From: Nitrospirota bacterium
Lineage (GTDB): Bacteria > JACPQY01
DNA: 64,000 nt
Reading direction: 5' to 3'
Assembly (NCBI GenBank): GCA_016190245.1
Contig: JACPQY010000083.1
Span: 1-64,000 of the forward strand
The notes below the pieces were generated by a model, which saw only the letters and a program-made list of their open reading frames with translations, ran no database searches and had not been told where the DNA came from. Below are positions 15,611 through 21,948 of the stretch, piece by piece (position 1 is the stretch's first letter; every line of letters begins with the position of its first letter). The position numbers and the translations under genes were made by a program.

Positions 15611-16699
15611 GTGGCCGACCGATCACCTGCAAAGGAACACGGCGGGGAGGACCTCGACTACGTGCTCCCCCGGGAGAGGATTGCCCTGGTCCCGCCCGAT
15701 CGCCGAGAGGACGCCCGTCTCCTGGTGCTCGACCCTCCCACCGGCGCGATCGAGCACGAGGAATTCCCCCGCCTTGTGAACCGGCTGGTCGAAGGGGACG
15801 TTCTCGTGCTCAACGACACGCGCGTCATCCCCGCCCGGCTCCGGGCGCGCAGACCGTCCGGAGGGGCGGCCGAGATTCTCCTGCTTCGGCGCGAGCGCTC
15901 CGAGTCACGATGGTATGCGCTCGCCCGCCCTCGGAACCGCCTTCGGTTGGGCACCACCCTCACGCTCCCGGGCGAGGCATCGGCCCGGGTCGTTGAACGG
16001 GGACCGAGCACGGTCCTGGTCGAACTGGACACAAAGGACCGACCCATCGAGACCTATCTTGACCGGTGGGGCGAGCCCCCGGTGCCTCCGTATGTGCGCC
16101 GGCGTGAGGGCGATCCGAGGATCCAATTGGACCGAGAACGCTACCAGACAGCGTACGCCAAGAACCCCGGCTCCATCGCGGCGCCCACGGCGGGTCTCCA
16201 CTTCACGCCCGAGATCCTCGCGGCCCTCCACGCGAAGGGCGTGGAGACCTGCTTCATCACCCTCCACGTCGGCCGTTCAACGTTCTTGTCCCTCGACGAT
16301 CTGCCGCCCGGCGCGACCACACTCCCCCCCGAGATCTACGACATCCCCGAAGAGACCGCCCACAGCATCGCCCGCGCCGCCGAGGAGGGGCGGAGGGTCG
16401 TGGCGGTGGGCACGACCGTGACGCGCACCCTCGAGGATGCGTTCGCCCACCACGGCTCGGTTCCGCCGGGCCGGGCCGAGGCCTCGATCTTCATCCGACC
16501 GGGCCATCGCTTCAAGGTCGTGAGCGCCCTCCTGACCAACTTCCACCAACCGCGCACGACCGTTTTTGCACTCGCCTGCGCCTTCGCGGGGACGGATTTC
16601 CTCAAACGTGCCTACGCCGAGGCCATCGAGAAGAAGTATCGTTTTCTTTCGTACGGGGATGCCGTGCTCATGCTGCGGCCGCAGGCCGCAGGGCCGTGA
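15611..16699 (+). CDS. queA: QueA, tRNA preQ1-ribosyltransferase-isomerase
   Basis: S-adenosylmethionine:tRNA ribosyltransferase-isomerase, which transfers and rearranges ribose from SAM onto preQ1 in tRNA to give epoxyqueuosine. Recognisable segments: DYVLPRERIALVPPDRRE, DARLLVLD, GDVLVLNDTRVIPARL, the PPYVRRREGD region, AAPTAGLHFTPE, ITLHVGRSTF and LLTNFHQPRTT. I place the start at the GTG at 15611, because the conserved N-terminus begins about 16 codons later; the frame is open to 15515, inside the divergent glycosylase 5' end. The stop codon lies at the edge of the direct repeat beginning at 16696. Confidence 0.92.
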   Translation: MADRSPAKEHGGEDLDYVLPRERIALVPPDRREDARLLVLDPPTGAIEHEEFPRLVNRLVEGDVLVLNDTRVIPARLRARRPSGGAAEILLLRRERSESRWYALARPRNRLRLGTTLTLPGEASARVVERGPSTVLVELDTKDRPIETYLDRWGEPPVPPYVRRREGDPRIQLDRERYQTAYAKNPGSIAAPTAGLHFTPEILAALHAKGVETCFITLHVGRSTFLSLDDLPPGATTLPPEIYDIPEETAHSIARAAEEGRRVVAVGTTVTRTLEDAFAHHGSVPPGRAEASIFIRPGHRFKVVSALLTNFHQPRTTVFALACAFAGTDFLKRAYAEAIEKKYRFLSYGDAVLMLRPQAAGP

Positions 16700-16804
16700 A
16701 CCAAGGAACCCGTGAGCCGGCAGGAGGGTGTCCCGCGTGTTCTCGGATTCACCGGTTCACCAATTCAGCGTCCCTTCCACTGCGCCGGGCGTTTCTGGAA
16801 GGCC
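16696..16804. repeat. Direct repeat copy 1 (enoyl-CoA hydratase 3' end plus hairpin)
   Basis: About 109 bp, similar in the same orientation to 21832-21948. Read on the minus strand, it encodes the C-terminus FQKRPAQWKGR and a stop, matching the last residues of the enoyl-CoA hydratase at 21906 (FQKRPPQWKGR). This is followed by a GTGAACC/GGTTCAC hairpin. The two copies flank the toxin-antitoxin/integron island. Confidence 0.6.
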
Positions 16805-17057
16805 GTCCGCGGCCTTTCAGAAATCGCGTGGACGCAGTTGTCCTGCCTCTCTCTTTTCGGACGAGTGAGACGAGTCCCTGCGTCGTCACTCGTACTTTGA
16901 TGGAGGGAACATCCAGTGGGGACATTTGTGTACGTTCGGGCGCAAGCGCAAACGTCCGCCCGTCTTTCCGTCGGATCAGGACTTTTCCGGAAACTTCGGC
17001 TTTGTCCAGCACGCTGGCGAGTTTCTGTCGAGCTTCGGAATATGTGTAGACCTGCAT
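16749..17057 (-). CDS. Phd/YefM-like antitoxin of VapC pair 3
   Basis: 102 residues. The N-terminus (QVYTYSEARQKLASVLDKA...GKVLIRRKDGRTFAL) is a Phd/YefM-family DNA-binding antitoxin, and the middle (IKVRVTTQGLVSLVRKERG) is its toxin-binding helix. The last ~28 residues read out of frame through the repeat at 16696-16804, so the natural C-terminus has been replaced. It lies downstream of its PIN toxin, the reverse of the usual order. Confidence 0.75.
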   Translation of the reverse strand: MQVYTYSEARQKLASVLDKAEVSGKVLIRRKDGRTFALAPERTQMSPLDVPSIKVRVTTQGLVSLVRKERGRTTASTRFLKGRGRPSRNARRSGRDAELVNR

Positions 17058-17060
17058 GGT

Positions 17061-17453
17061 TCACACCTCCAGAACATGGATGCCCATCTTCCCGGCCGCT
17101 CGTCTGAGCGAGCGATCCAAGGTCAGCAACGGCGCGGCATGTCGTGCCGCGCAGTCCAGGAAGTACGCGTCGTACGCGTACAAGTGGTTTGCATGAGCGA
17201 TGGACACGGCATTCTCCAGATCCACCGCCAAGTAGCGGATGGGGATGGACTGGAAAATGGTCAGCCCCCGCCTGGCCTGTTCAAGACCCAGGCGATGCTG
17301 TTTCAGCATCGCCGAGAACGCGTTTCCGATTTCCCACGGGATGGACCCTGGTCCCACCAGGTTATGTCCCGTAGTGACCTCGACAACACGATCCCGTTCC
17401 GGTTCACCAACCACCACGGCGAGAACGGCTGAGGCATCGATCACAATGTCCAT
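17061..17453 (-). CDS. vapC: PIN-domain toxin VapC (pair 3)
   Basis: About 130 residues from the ATG at 17453, preceded by a good AAGGAG ribosome binding site. PIN-domain acidic set: VIDASAVLA, WEIGNAFSA, YDAYFLDCA, LLTLDRSLR. Toxin first, antitoxin second, 3 nt apart. The promoter at 17483-17510 gives a leader of about 23 nt, so this pair uses a conventional leadered start. Confidence 0.85.
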   Translation of the reverse strand: MDIVIDASAVLAVVVGEPERDRVVEVTTGHNLVGPGSIPWEIGNAFSAMLKQHRLGLEQARRGLTIFQSIPIRYLAVDLENAVSIAHANHLYAYDAYFLDCAARHAAPLLTLDRSLRRAAGKMGIHVLEV

Positions 17454-17482
17454 CACAACTCCTTTTCCATACCACATGGACA

Positions 17483-17510
17483 ATTGTACAATGCAGGGTC
17501 ACGATGTCAA
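17483..17510 (-). promoter_or_regulatory. Promoter of vapC pair 3
   Basis: Minus strand: -35 TTGACA (17505-17510), 16-bp spacer, -10 TACAAT (17483-17488). The -10 sits in a TTGTACAA-type palindrome that could be the antitoxin operator. Confidence 0.65.
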
Positions 17511-17613
17511 TCTCTCTTGGCAAACATTCGCAATCCGGCTGCGACTGGTCATGCCCGGGTTGCCGGCCACTCTTGAAGAGCGTGGATGCCTCTGCTGGAA
17601 TCCGATTGAGACT

Positions 17614-17787
17614 ATGACCGTTTCCGCGCTCGCCCAAACTATCCGCCACCTTCCTACCCCGGACCGGATCAAGCTTTTCGATCGGCTTGGCCCGACGCTG
17701 GAAGACTACCTTCTCACCAAGATAGTCCACGACCGCTTCAGGAAGGCCTCCTACAAGCGGATTCCCTGGGCAGATCTCAAACCCTGA
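17614..17787 (+). CDS. Small RelB-like antitoxin
   Basis: 57 residues from the ATG at 17614 (VSALAQTIRHLPTPDRIKLFDRL...IPWADLKP). Helical, with the length and C-terminal position of small antitoxins found just ahead of RelE/ParE toxins. The following toxin frame is a remnant, so this antitoxin is probably an orphan. The frame is open further upstream, but nothing there looks like protein. Confidence 0.5.
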   Translation: MTVSALAQTIRHLPTPDRIKLFDRLGPTLEDYLLTKIVHDRFRKASYKRIPWADLKP

Positions 17788-17932
17788 GGTTTTGCCAGGT
17801 CGAATTCCTCGAGGAAGCGGCGACTTCCGAATCGTCTACAGCGTGAACGAGAGGACCAAGACGGTCGAAGTTGGAGTCGTCTGCCACAGGTCGCAGGTCT
17901 ACCAAATCGCCCTCCAGCGCCGCCTCGCCTGA
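17786..17932 (+). pseudogene. RelE/ParE toxin relic
   Basis: An in-frame segment ending at TGA 17930-17932 encodes GSGDFRIVYSVNERTKTVEV and VVCHRSQVYQ, the C-terminal core of RelE-type toxins (normally GDYRIVYEID...GHRREVY). The N-terminal half of the toxin is missing, and the frame joins directly to the end of the small antitoxin. It lies immediately outside the last attC site of the integron. Confidence 0.6.
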
Positions 17933-17939
17933 ACCTCCA

Positions 17940-17992
17940 GCCTAACGCTCGGCATCAGCGGCGCGGCGAGCCGCGTCCGCTGCAACCGGTTG

Positions 17993-17998
<6 letters not shown>
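17940..17998 (-). repeat. attC site of BrnTA cassette
   Basis: 59 bp. Minus-strand reading: outer box CGCTAAC (containing the BrnA stop TAA), inner palindromic arms TTGCAGCGGACG and CGCCGCTGATGCC, outer box GTTAGGC. The bounds are the TAAC and GTTA cores. Confidence 0.8.
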
Positions 17999-18521
<523 letters not shown>

Positions 18522-18541
18522 TCATATCATGGGTTCCGTCA

Positions 18542-18599
18542 GGCGAACGCTCGCGATCAGCCGCCGCGATTTGCGGTCGGCTGCATCGCGTGGTTAGAT
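18542..18599 (-). repeat. attC site of RHH-MazF cassette
   Basis: 58 bp. Minus strand: outer box ATCTAAC (contains the MazF stop), palindromic arms GATGCAGCCGACCGC and GCGGCGGCTGATCGC, outer box GTTCGCC, a departure from the GTTRRRY consensus. Confidence 0.78.
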
Positions 18600-18932
18600 T
18601 CCGATGATTTCATTGAGGCCCTCGACGACCTGCGCAATCTCCTCGGGCGAGGCGTGCTTGAGTCTTGCCCCGATGCGCTCGGCGGCAACCGTGCGAATCT
18701 GGCTGATTTTGACCCACGAACGCTTCGGCAGCTTTGGCGCCTGAAGCTCTAGGGTCAGCGGAAAGCCGGCGCGCTGAGGCTGACTCGTCAACGCCACCGC
18801 GATGACGGTCCCCGAGCGCTCGTTGAACACGTCGTGGCTGAGAACCAGCACTGGGCGCAAGCCCGCCTGCTCGCGGCCGCGTACCGGGTTAAGGTCGGCC
18901 CACCGGATCTCGCCCCTCAGTATTCGGGCCAA
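18594..18932 (-). CDS. mazF: MazF/PemK-like toxin (integron cassette 2)
   Basis: 112 residues. N-terminal [19 protein letters not shown] and [18 protein letters not shown] are the MazF/PemK signature, with [11 protein letters not shown] in the middle and an ERIGARL segment. This is a sequence-specific mRNA endonuclease family with a CcdB-like fold. It overlaps the upstream RHH antitoxin by 16 nt. Its TAA stop is embedded in the attC outer box. Confidence 0.9.
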
Positions 18933-19159
18933 GCGTCGATCTCCTGCCCCAAGCCTTCTTCAGCAAGCGCTTTCTCGAAGTTGGGATCCAGCTTTGCACA
19001 TTCGATCGCCAAACGGTCGCGCTCCATCCGCGTGAGCTTTTCGGCCACGGCCGATTGGATGGCCCGGCTACGGTTGGGATAGACCTTTTTTGCAACGAGG
19101 CCATCGACGCGCTCCAACGTTCCGCTGTCGATGGTGATGGCAACTTTGATACTGCTCAT
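18917..19159 (-). CDS. RHH/CopG-type antitoxin (integron cassette 2)
   Basis: 80 residues. Ribbon-helix-helix domain ([21 protein letters not shown], then [15 protein letters not shown]), followed by an acidic tail ([20 protein letters not shown]) that would block MazF. Ribosome binding site GGAGG 6 nt before the ATG. A perfect 7-bp inverted repeat just upstream (19173-19193) is the likely autoregulatory operator. Confidence 0.85.
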
Positions 19160-19172
19160 GGCGCACCTCCAA

Positions 19173-19193
19173 GGTATGACAATTTATCATACC
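19173..19193. promoter_or_regulatory. Operator palindrome of RHH-MazF cassette
   Basis: Arms GGTATGA and TCATACC separated by 7 bp, directly upstream of the antitoxin ribosome binding site. The AT-rich centre could hold a -10 element, so the cassette seems to carry its own promoter. Confidence 0.65.
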
Positions 19194-19212
19194 TCATGGG
19201 CGCGCGCAAGGA

Positions 19213-19274
19213 ATCTAACGCTCCGGTTCAGCGGCGGGCCGCGCAGCGCCGTCCGCTGCATGCTGTTGTTAGGC
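19213..19274 (-). repeat. attC site of HEPN/Ymh cassette
   Basis: 62 bp. Minus strand: GCCTAAC box, arms CATGCAGCGGACGGCG and CGCCGCTGAACCGG, GTTAGAT box. This is the most canonical of the four sites. Confidence 0.85.
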
Positions 19275-19289
19275 CGCGCAACCCGCGCC

Positions 19290-20093
19290 CTATGTTGCCG
19301 CACGGCGCTTTGCCTCCTCCACCCGATAGGCAAGTAGGCTCAAGAGGGAAATGTACTCTATAGCCCTCTGTTCTGGGCCTTCCGGAAACGCGTGACCGCC
19401 AGGGTTCCGAATGCCCAGCACAGCGCCCTCGAACAAGTGCATCATGCCTTCTTGCTCGTCGAGGTCGGTCGGAGTCGCGAGGTCGTTGAAAAACAGAACG
19501 GGGTCCTTCCGCGAGAACACCGCCCGGACAAGTGCCGCTCCGTCGACGTCATGACGACCGGAGCGTTCCTTGACGTAGTTGATCAGGGCCTTTGCACCAG
19601 CAAAGACGGCCTCCCAGGGATGCCCATCAAGAAAAAGGTCACGGGCGACGTCCGCGATCCTTGGATGCAGGTTGAGCTTATCGAAATACGACTTCGGCGC
19701 TGGAACCACACCCTGCTCCAAGTCCTGGCGTTTCTCGTAGAGTCGCGCAATGAGACCGTTCAGGATTCCGATAACCTGAGTACGCCCGCGCTGCTTACCT
19801 TCGACGATCTCGCTCGAATGCATTCCCATGTACAATCCGCCCGCCCAGATATCGATGTGTTCGTGTTCCCGGAACTCTGGCGAGTTGGGGCCGAAGACTT
19901 CGCGGATCGAGTCGCGAACGTTGCTCCTGGCAACATCCACGGCGCCGGTGTCATTGAACACGGCGGCGGGGATGTCCAGCTGCTCCAGTTCTTCGATCCT
20001 CCGTCGGAGTTTCGCGATGCCTCGCTCGATCTCCTCTACGGATCGAAATTCCCGAGGCTCGATCGCCGGAGGCTCTGGTCGTTTCCTTGCCAT
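19290..20093 (-). CDS. TIGR02391/Ymh-type HEPN protein (integron cassette 1)
   Basis: 267 residues. The C-terminal half matches the TIGR02391 (Ymh) family: LHPRIADVARDLFLDGHPW EAV region, DLDEQEGMMHLFEGAVLGI, then RNPGGHAF, which gives the R-x4-H motif of HEPN ribonuclease-type folds. The usual family motif is RNPRAHE; the Gly-Gly version here is a change to note. The N-terminal half starts with a coiled coil (VEEIERGIAKLRRRIEELEQL). HEPN proteins often act in toxin-antitoxin or anti-phage systems, which is an inference here. Single gene in its cassette, 17 nt from the boundary. Confidence 0.75.
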   Translation of the reverse strand: MARKRPEPPAIEPREFRSVEEIERGIAKLRRRIEELEQLDIPAAVFNDTGAVDVARSNVRDSIREVFGPNSPEFREHEHIDIWAGGLYMGMHSSEIVEGKQRGRTQVIGILNGLIARLYEKRQDLEQGVVPAPKSYFDKLNLHPRIADVARDLFLDGHPWEAVFAGAKALINYVKERSGRHDVDGAALVRAVFSRKDPVLFFNDLATPTDLDEQEGMMHLFEGAVLGIRNPGGHAFPEGPEQRAIEYISLLSLLAYRVEEAKRRAAT

Positions 20094-20109
20094 GGTGGAT
20101 GCTCTGTCG

Positions 20110-20277
20110 GCCTAACGCCGGAGCTGACTGGCGGTGGCGCGAATTGCGGGGCCGCAGGCCCCAGCAAGGCGTGCCACCGACCGGTCCAGCGATTCTGTTC
20201 GAGGCGCGCGAGTCAGCGCGCGACGCGAACAGTTCTTATCGCTGGCCGGGCGGAGCCAGGCAGCTCCAGCGTTCGCG
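20110..20277 (-). repeat. Long attC-like site next to attI
   Basis: 168 bp. On the minus strand, outer arms AACGCTGGAGCTGCCTGGC and GCCAGTCAGCTCCGGCGTT are near-complementary, and the recombination box GTTAGGC closes the site. Additional internal stems (GGGGCC/GGCCCC, GGTGGC/GCCACC) make it much longer than the three 58-62 bp sites. No gene fits between it and the attI region, so it is a gene-less cassette or an attI/attC fusion. Confidence 0.6.
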
Positions 20278-20333
20278 GAGCGCGCAGCGCGCCGCGAACA
20301 TCTCCTTTTAACCTTATTCTGCTGCGTGGCTGA

Positions 20334-20362
20334 AGGCTAGGGGAATCAGGCTAGGTTGTCAA
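20334..20362 (-). promoter_or_regulatory. Integron cassette promoter Pc
   Basis: Minus strand: -35 TTGACA (20357-20362), 17-bp spacer, -10 TAGCCT (20334-20339), directed into the cassette array. The 20278-20333 stretch between it and the first attC-like site is the presumed attI. It contains GTTAAAA and a possible 21-codon ORF starting ATGTTCGCG behind AAAAGGAG. Confidence 0.6.
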
Positions 20363-20373
20363 GTCTGATGGTC

Positions 20374-20402
20374 TTGGAAAGAGCATGGGAATGGGGTATT
20401 CT
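20374..20402 (+). promoter_or_regulatory. Integrase promoter
   Basis: -35 TTGGAA (20374-20379), 17-bp spacer, -10 TATTCT (20397-20402). The expected start is near 20409, giving a ~44-nt leader. I see no CTGT-N8-ACAG LexA box in the region. Confidence 0.6.
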
Positions 20403-20452
20403 CTACTTTGTAGTTAGAAATATGTGATTATGCGGAGGCAACCCATTCGTAG

Positions 20453-21748
20453 ATGAGAACTACACTCAAGGGTTTTGAGGTGTATCTGGCACGATCCGGC
20501 ACCGCAACGGCTCATCAGCTCCCCTACTACCTCAAGTGGGTCGCAGACGGCTACACCTTCCTGGAACTGGACGAGAGCGTACCCCTCAACACCGATCAGA
20601 AACGCCGGTTCCTCTCCCACCTCGCCAAGTCTCACGAAGACTGGCAGGTGAGGCAGGCAGAAACGGCCATGCGCCACTACCAGTACTTCCTCAGCGGGCA
20701 GCAGGAGAAGACCCCGGCCGAGGCGGCGGCCTCGGACGAGTGGCAGGCCCTCGAATCGCGCATGCGTGAGGCCCTTCGGCTCCGCCACCGGTCGCTCAGC
20801 ACGGAGAAGACGTACCTCATCTGGCTGCGCGGGTTCAGGTCCTTCCTGCGGACCAAGGACCCCGGGGCGGTGGACGGCAAGGATCTCCAGAACTACCTCA
20901 GCCATCTCGCCGTCGAGAGGAAGGTTTCCGCCTCTACTCAGAACCAGGCGCTGAACGCGATCGTGTTCCTGTTCCGCCATGTGCTCGACCAGAACATCGA
21001 GGGCGAACTCGACGCGGTGCGCGCCTACCCGCGCAGGCGCCTCCCCGTGGTCCTCACGCCGCGCGAATTGCACTCCCTCTTCGACCAGCTCAAGGGATCG
21101 CACAAGCTCATGGCCAGGCTGATCTACGGCTGCGGTCTCCGAATCCAGGAGTGCCTGGATCTCAGGATAAAGGACGTTGATCTCGAACAGAACGTGGTGA
21201 TCGTCCGGGCCGGGAAAGGCGACAAGGACCTGCCTGCCCGCCACAACCGGCACGGCGGGCCTGCCGAAGCGGCGCAGGCAGGCCGCCGGACCGTTCTCCC
21301 CGAGTCGCTGAAGGACGACCTGATCCGGCACATCGCCCAGGTGAGAAGCCTGTACGAAGGGGACCGGGCAAAGGAGCTAAACGGGGTCTATCTGCCCGAG
21401 GCGCTGGAACGGAAATACCCGAATGCCGGAAAGGAGTGGGCGTGGTTCTGGCTGTTCCCTTCGAGGTCTCTTGCCGTCGATCCCCGCGCGAACGTTGTGA
21501 GGCGGCATCACATCCATATCGCGGCGCTCCAGAAGGCGTTCAAGGCGGCCATCGGCAAGGCGGGCATCGCGAAGCACGCAACCGTGCACACGCTGCGGCA
21601 CAGTTTCGCCACGCACCTGCTGGAAAGGGGCTATGACATCCGGACGATCCAGGAGTTGCTCGGGCATCGCAATCTCCAGACGACGATGATCTACACGCAC
21701 GTGGCGACAAAGAACATCCTCGGGGTGAAGAGCCCGCTGGATGGGTGA
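20453..21748 (+). CDS. intI: Integron integrase (tyrosine recombinase)
   Basis: 431 residues. The catalytic domain has the first Arg in [14 protein letters not shown], the His-Arg pair in [15 protein letters not shown], a later His in [11 protein letters not shown] and nucleophile Tyr in MIYTHV. The integron-specific patch is present ([22 protein letters not shown] region, about residues 315-345), which separates IntI from Xer and phage integrases. Two oddities: an extra N-terminal segment of about 100 residues before the core-binding domain ([14 protein letters not shown], near residue 117), and an in-frame insertion of about 20 residues after GKGDKD made of palindromic DNA. The reading frame is intact. 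Confidence 0.93.
21229..21282. repeat. Palindromic in-frame insertion within intI
   Basis: Outer arms CCTGCCTGC and GCAGGCAGG enclose inner arms CCCGCC and GGCGGG. The DNA encodes the extra residues [20 protein letters not shown] between GKGDKD and TVLPESL, where other IntI proteins go directly on. It keeps the frame. Confidence 0.65.
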
Positions 21749-21831
21749 GCGGGAAGGCCCGTCGCGGGGGCAAAGTCTTGCCTTTGCGCGTCCCAGACGG
21801 CGCGATTCGGCGGCCGCCGAATCGTGAGCCC

Positions 21832-21948
21832 GTGACCCAGGGAACCCGTGAACCAGAGAGACTGGTTTCGCGGTCTCGGGATCACGGGTTCACGGCGTCA
21901 CACTTCTACCGTCCCTTCCATTGCGGCGGGCGCTTCTGGAAAAAGGCC
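21832..21948. repeat. Direct repeat copy 2 at enoyl-CoA hydratase 3' end
   Basis: Contains the last ~14 codons of the enoyl-CoA hydratase and the downstream GTGAACC/GGTTCAC hairpin. Similar, in direct orientation, to 16696-16804. The segment between the copies holds toxin-antitoxin genes and the integron. Confidence 0.6.

Follow-up and report, generated by a model that had tools for sequence, protein, structure and literature searches.

A small chromosomal integron with a long, two-clamp integrase and toxin-type cassettes in a Nitrospirota draft genome

The window, a stretch of 64,000 nucleotides (positions 1-64000 of contig C78) from the 3.3-Mb, 84.8% complete draft genome (G000) of a Nitrospirota bacterium, carries an integron between queA (end at 16699) and an enoyl-CoA hydratase gene (22706-21906, minus strand). 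The integrase gene, intI, occupies 20453-21748 of the plus strand; the cassettes point away from it along the opposite (minus) strand, where the array proper extends from 20299 to 17940. An earlier note had described a complete integron at 16696-21948. The integron is supported because the family scores of the integrase, a covariance model of attC sites, the conservation of attI and of the cassette promoter (Pc) and the integrase tree all agree; its proposed limits have to be given up, as they mark a flanking direct repeat instead. Neither of the two results that the earlier note had named as grounds for rejecting its reading was obtained (attC scores under the threshold at all four sites, or an integrase grouping with XerC/D). 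We are highly confident that this locus is a true chromosomal integron, small in size and of the long-IntI type, the roles given below to its cassettes included, and its array adds a new member to a known kind.

The 431-residue IntI scored 391 bits with TIGR02249, the integron-integrase model (cut-off, 265), and matched PF13495 at residues 103-182 and PF00589 at residues 200-419. Its best match in PDB was the Vibrio IntIA (2a3v; E = 5e-72), with which both the catalytic residues and the integron-specific patch seen by the earlier note can be aligned. With the XerC and XerD models it scored 137 and 136 bits, against cut-offs of 335 and 330. In a tree of 60 rows, the protein is on the IntI side, beside the IntI of Nitrospirae RBG_16_64_22 (fork support, 95) and inside a clade of 39 rows (support, 99); the one branch dividing IntI from Xer has a support of only 64. 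A search of IMG/VR returned only distant recombinases and no viral carrier of this IntI. None of several kinds of LexA-box pattern was found upstream of intI, where another SOS box is still possible.

The attC sites were assessed with a covariance model (R1) built from 11 attCs of other integrons, all outside the window. In the training alignment, 85% of cells were paired and 29 were changed on both sides, with none of 500 shuffles as high. Three sites were detected with this model, with E-values from 3e-8 to 1.5e-7, and all three lie on the minus strand: attC2 (62 nt, 19213-19274; 40.6 bits, E = 1.5e-7), attC3 (58 nt, 18542-18599; 43.4 bits, E = 3e-8) and attC4 (59 nt, 17940-17998; 42.8 bits, E = 4e-8), which ends the array. 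As attC2 alone folds no better than its shuffles, the case for that site is the one made by the covariance model. Matches to attC were few in the genome as a whole and grouped at integrase genes or intI remnants; a scan of the window with Rfam, which has no attC model, returned only one tRNA. It could be argued that the recombinase is of XerC/D type or a phage integrase and that the palindromes are ordinary intergenic repeats, since many dispersed palindromic repeats are present in this genome. This explanation is refuted by the family scores (the Xer models stay about 200 bits under their cut-offs while TIGR02249 is above its own), by the separation of IntI from Xer on the tree, by the rarity and clustering of attC matches and by the compensatory changes in the attC alignment, and we consider that it has next to no chance of being right.

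An integron is also indicated by the region between intI and the first cassette. The attI site (AGAATAAGGTTAAAAGGAGATGTTCGCG; 20293-20320, minus strand) was located by alignment with related attI regions (loci L043, L044, L045, L047, L046, L048 and L050 and the second integron of this genome), with the crossover at the GTT of 20299-20297. Pc (20334-20362, minus strand) consists of a -35 element TTGACA (20362-20357), a 17-nt spacer and a -10 element TAGCCT (20339-20334). Conservation of Pc and attI extends over nine integrons, and in the related ones the TTGAC of the -35 element is invariant and the spacing is kept.

The remark of the earlier note that the integrase is long was right, and its length is due to a second, tandem core-binding domain at the N-terminus, by which this IntI also differs from the class 1-3 enzymes. 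An extra core-binding domain (residues 1-84) precedes the canonical one (about residues 103-182) and the catalytic domain with the integron patch (about residues 200-430). The extension, of 90 residues, is common to the clade, whose full-coverage members align from the N-terminus and which spans Nitrospirota, Thermodesulfobacteriota, Myxococcota, Planctomycetota and Spirochaetota (names as in the records). When the extensions were scanned alone, 26 of 29 matched Phage_int_SAM_4 at E-values up to 1 (best, 8e-9); those checked individually gave E-values of 0.002-0.08, the match covering the extension itself. A profile of the extensions aligned with a profile of the canonical core-binding domains of the same proteins at 95% probability. 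AlphaFold2 folds the extension into four helices forming one domain (predicted local distance difference test score, 85), for which the best Foldseek matches were the core-binding domains of archaeal XerA, Vibrio IntIA and Cre, at weak E-values (0.05 and above) and with probabilities mostly of 0.8-1.0. Long IntIs thus carry tandem core-binding domains, a feature inherited by the whole 39-member clade. In a published classification, integron-like recombinases count as "simple", and it is for other groups that extra N-terminal domains are named (PMC8138268). Text searches of the literature, with subscription papers outside their coverage, found no description of a core-binding-domain duplication in IntI, and the long IntI seems to be a structural variant undescribed in the searchable literature. 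A more far-reaching suggestion is that long IntIs form a distinct cross-phylum class in which the second clamp alters the grip of the synapse on attI or folded attC, making a mechanistically different type of integron; this we hold to be doubtful.

Several points weigh against a functional integron at this locus. The attC1 site (168-169 nt, 20110-20278, minus strand), whether taken from 20278 to 20110 or as an inner 20203-20110, reached 13-20 bits with the covariance model, near background. Of the four attC-type sites of the earlier note, then, three are supported by an independent model and the fourth is weak by that model but a strong palindrome: its bottom strand folds at -71.3 kcal/mol (z = -9.35 versus shuffles), and it ends in a perfect GTTAGGC. 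Several boxes deviate (GTTCGCG in attI; GTTCGCC, the R' box, in attC3). There was no strain pair showing any gain or loss of cassettes. The activity of IntI and the toxin-antitoxin (TA) and defence functions are predicted from homology. Finally, IntI contains an in-frame insertion of 54 nt (about 21227-21282, plus strand), corresponding to 18 amino acids (residues 260-277), four residues past the catalytic K255, which aligns with K160 of IntIA; so close to the catalytic lysine, it may weaken or impair the enzyme. The inserted DNA belongs to a dispersed palindromic repeat found at about nine further places in the genome at E < 1e-4.

This insertion raises the question of whether the integron has been immobilised, the repeat having inactivated or weakened IntI and left the array as a frozen relic kept by its TA modules. 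The insertion is absent from all 28 other aligned long IntIs, the loop at residues 259-274 is modelled with low confidence, two other copies of intI in the genome are clearly broken and relics of TA genes are present past the final attC, all of which would fit such a history. Yet the insertion is in frame, the remaining catalytic and patch residues are all intact, and a reading frame of 431 codons has stayed open despite 30-35% divergence from the nearest relatives. We regard a frozen array as a substantial possibility, although a somewhat less probable one than its opposite.

The genes of the cassettes are those that the earlier note described (HEPN/Ymh, RHH-MazF and BrnTA). The attI-proximal cassette (about 20298-20115) is a geneless "attC-only" unit: given the position of attI and the extent of attC1, it consists almost solely of attC1. 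The next cassette (20115-19219) carries a gene for a HEPN/Ymh RNase-type protein of 267 residues (19290-20093, minus strand; PF09509, E = 4e-27; TIGR02391). Its R-x4-H motif is intact (RNPGGH, with R229 and H234) and conserved in homologues from two other phyla. This cassette holds no second gene, in keeping with the lack of an obvious antitoxin in the earlier note, and so no adjacent MNT antitoxin as in HEPN-MNT pairs. No homologue of the protein was found in phage records, and none of the fusion partners typical of defence Ymh proteins (paraMORC, AbiJ-NTD and AbiTii) was detected in it. The Ymh family has been assigned to the HEPN RNases, and for HEPN genes carried as integron cassettes a role as dormancy RNases has been put forward (PMC3710099). 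A role of this solitary HEPN RNase in defence or dormancy is plausible.

The third cassette encodes an RHH antitoxin (18917-19159, minus strand) and a MazF/PemK toxin (18594-18932, minus strand; PF02452, E = 9e-30). The RHH protein scored below the RHH_8 cut-off and is 55% identical to the RHH proteins beside mazF in L095 and L077; the MazF protein is 81% identical to that of L095 and 71% identical to those of L077 and L069. The pair thus recurs in these three loci, in two of them (L095 and L069) beside a detected attC. An operator palindrome (GGTATGATAAATTGTCATACC; 19173-19193, minus strand) precedes the RHH gene and is conserved in the RHH-MazF cassettes of three other integrons, with which the operator-like form GGTATGAT...ATCATACC is shared. 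The PemK profile match and the adjacent antitoxin identify a MazF/PemK-RHH module, and the conserved palindrome suggests that it is autoregulated. In the last cassette, brnT (18225-18506, minus strand; PF04365, E = 3e-25) overlaps a gene for a BrnA-like antitoxin (17993-18241, minus strand). The latter has no Pfam match and is assigned by its position and by its identity to stretches after brnT elsewhere (55% in L077 and 36% in L105), the loci in which relatives of the BrnTA pair were found.

These features suggest how the array may work. IntI would recombine folded single-stranded attC with attI, and cassettes would thereby enter next to Pc; the presence of the same cassettes in other integrons is an indirect hint of such movement. 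The order from Pc along the minus strand is the attC-only unit, the solitary Ymh-family HEPN RNase, the putatively autoregulated RHH-MazF module and BrnTA. Both TA modules probably have their own promoters. They would most likely persist by addiction, their loss being costly, and possibly also by aborting phage infection, while the HEPN gene most likely encodes an RNase that becomes active under certain conditions, in defence or dormancy.

The earlier note had pointed out that every cassette with a gene is of the toxin type. As a count this is correct (three of three gene cassettes), but it is not unusual: toxin genes are the commonest identifiable cassette genes in the related integrons surveyed, and TA cassettes are frequent both there and in published catalogues. 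Among 55 delimitable cassette intervals of the related integrons, the most frequent identifiable toxin families were ParE, PemK, BrnT, Gp49/HigB and HicA, and by an estimate counted by hand from the listed proteins, toxin cassettes make up 14-15 of about 43 gene-bearing ones. TA systems, including BrnTA, and defence genes are over-represented in integrons generally (PMC7370490), and stabilisation by TA cassettes has already been proposed (PMC11551772). It is plausible that the TA cassettes stabilise this array as well.

This integron is not the only one in the genome. At the end of contig C31 (L033:1-3136) there is a second complete integron with an intact long IntI of 436 residues, 55% identical to the window IntI over the alignment. 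Its first cassette encodes an Mrr restriction endonuclease (attC at 786-727, 53 bits) and its second, cut by the contig end, matches a type II restriction enzyme weakly. Two further integrons are decayed: on C83 (L140:5238-5515), an internal deletion in intI has brought residues 6-49 next to residues 384-431, and two attCs and a SnoaL-type cassette are present; C39 (L139:4890-4982) retains a piece of intI together with two attCs and a cassette of BrnT-like/CopG type. C12 (L141) has one attC adjoining a BrnTA pair. Since the tree does not pair the two intact integrases as sisters, integrons were likely acquired at least twice, separately. In a different set of loci, from Desulfobacterales or deltaproteobacteria (L059, L063, L094, L096 and L103), attC was found downstream of intI on the same strand, that is, with the integrase in inverted orientation, and L059 and L094 share attI-like motifs in the stretch after intI. 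An inverted integrase orientation has been reported for Treponema.

Beyond the last attC, the segment 17933-16749 has no attC of its own and holds a TA remnant and a PIN/Phd pair. A short open reading frame with a truncated ParE/RelE toxin (17614-17932, plus strand) matches the ParE_toxin profile at positions 61-89 only, below the cut-off. It is followed by a PIN-domain, VapC-type toxin gene (17061-17447, minus strand; PF01850, E = 8e-11) and a Phd/YefM-type antitoxin gene (16749-17057, minus strand), whose product matches PF02604 at residues 1-40 only and whose C-terminus runs into the left flanking direct repeat. This repeat (16694-16800, plus strand; 107 bp) contains a dispersed palindrome and a fossil of the 3' end of an enoyl-CoA hydratase gene. 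It is 74% identical to the right repeat (21830-21941, plus strand; whole-genome E = 6e-11), which at its end takes in the 3' end of the enoyl-CoA hydratase gene that is still intact. A dispersed intergenic palindrome (GTGAACCCGTGATCCCGAGA-like) occurs at 21832-21901 and at places on C29, C31 and C76.

In G001, the nearest related genome and the only one of the same family that was compared, an SCP2 gene lies about 290 bp beyond queA, with neither integron nor enoyl-CoA hydratase between them, whereas about 6 kb separate the two genes in the window genome. The integron block was therefore either inserted in the lineage of the window or lost in the other. An orthologue of the enoyl-CoA hydratase (67% identity) is present at another locus in G001 (C7 and C11 were examined), so that this gene either moved or was inserted together with the integron. 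The repeats of about 110 bp at both ends, the right copy lying over the 3' end of a gene, together with the roughly 0.3 kb that stand in the related genome in place of 6 kb, could mean that 16694-21943 is a mobile unit, integrative or transposable, which has its own way of integrating and carries the integron as cargo. We think this unlikely. The segment contains neither a transposase nor a second integrase, its terminal repeats are only 74% identical and include the genome-dispersed palindrome, and the enoyl-CoA hydratase gene is also missing from the empty site, so that the insertion exceeds the segment bounded by the repeats.

In summary, we describe a small chromosomal integron that extends toxin-rich arrays to the small integrons of deep environmental lineages, among which the same kinds of TA cassettes circulate. 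It also points to a clade of IntIs with a duplicated DNA-binding domain, while the literature classes integron-like recombinases as of simple architecture. Expressing a long IntI would allow the effect of the extra domain on attI and attC recognition to be tested directly. An extra N-terminal part before the core-binding domain is likewise present in TnpR of Tn4401, TnpA of Tn554 and the tyrosine recombinases with arm-binding domains (PMC8138268), but in the window IntI this part is itself a core-binding (SAM-like) domain. The solitary HEPN gene has counterparts in the Ymh family (PF09509/TIGR02391) and in an integron-cassette HEPN protein (PDB 3jrt), with which it has in common the R-x4-H motif and its solitary state. 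HEPN genes in integrons have been described before (PMC3710099), and according to that work 3jrt belongs to another HEPN family. The Vibrio cholerae superintegron and its IntIA (2a3v) share with this locus the IntI catalytic residues and patch, attC hairpins, a divergent Pc and scattered TA cassettes (PMC11551772); the window array has four cassettes instead of 179, its attCs are diverse in length and sequence, and its IntI has the extra core-binding domain and the 18-residue insertion. The closest counterparts are the long-IntI integrons of metagenome-assembled genomes of Nitrospirota, Desulfobacterota, Myxococcota and Planctomycetota, such as those of Nitrospirae RBG_16_64_22 (L044), DeMMO6_17 (L043) and Brocadia pituitae (L047). 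They agree with the window integron in integrase architecture (about 61-69% identity), in the layout of attI and Pc, in attC type and in having TA-rich cassettes, and differ in cassette content and in lacking the hairpin insertion near the active site.

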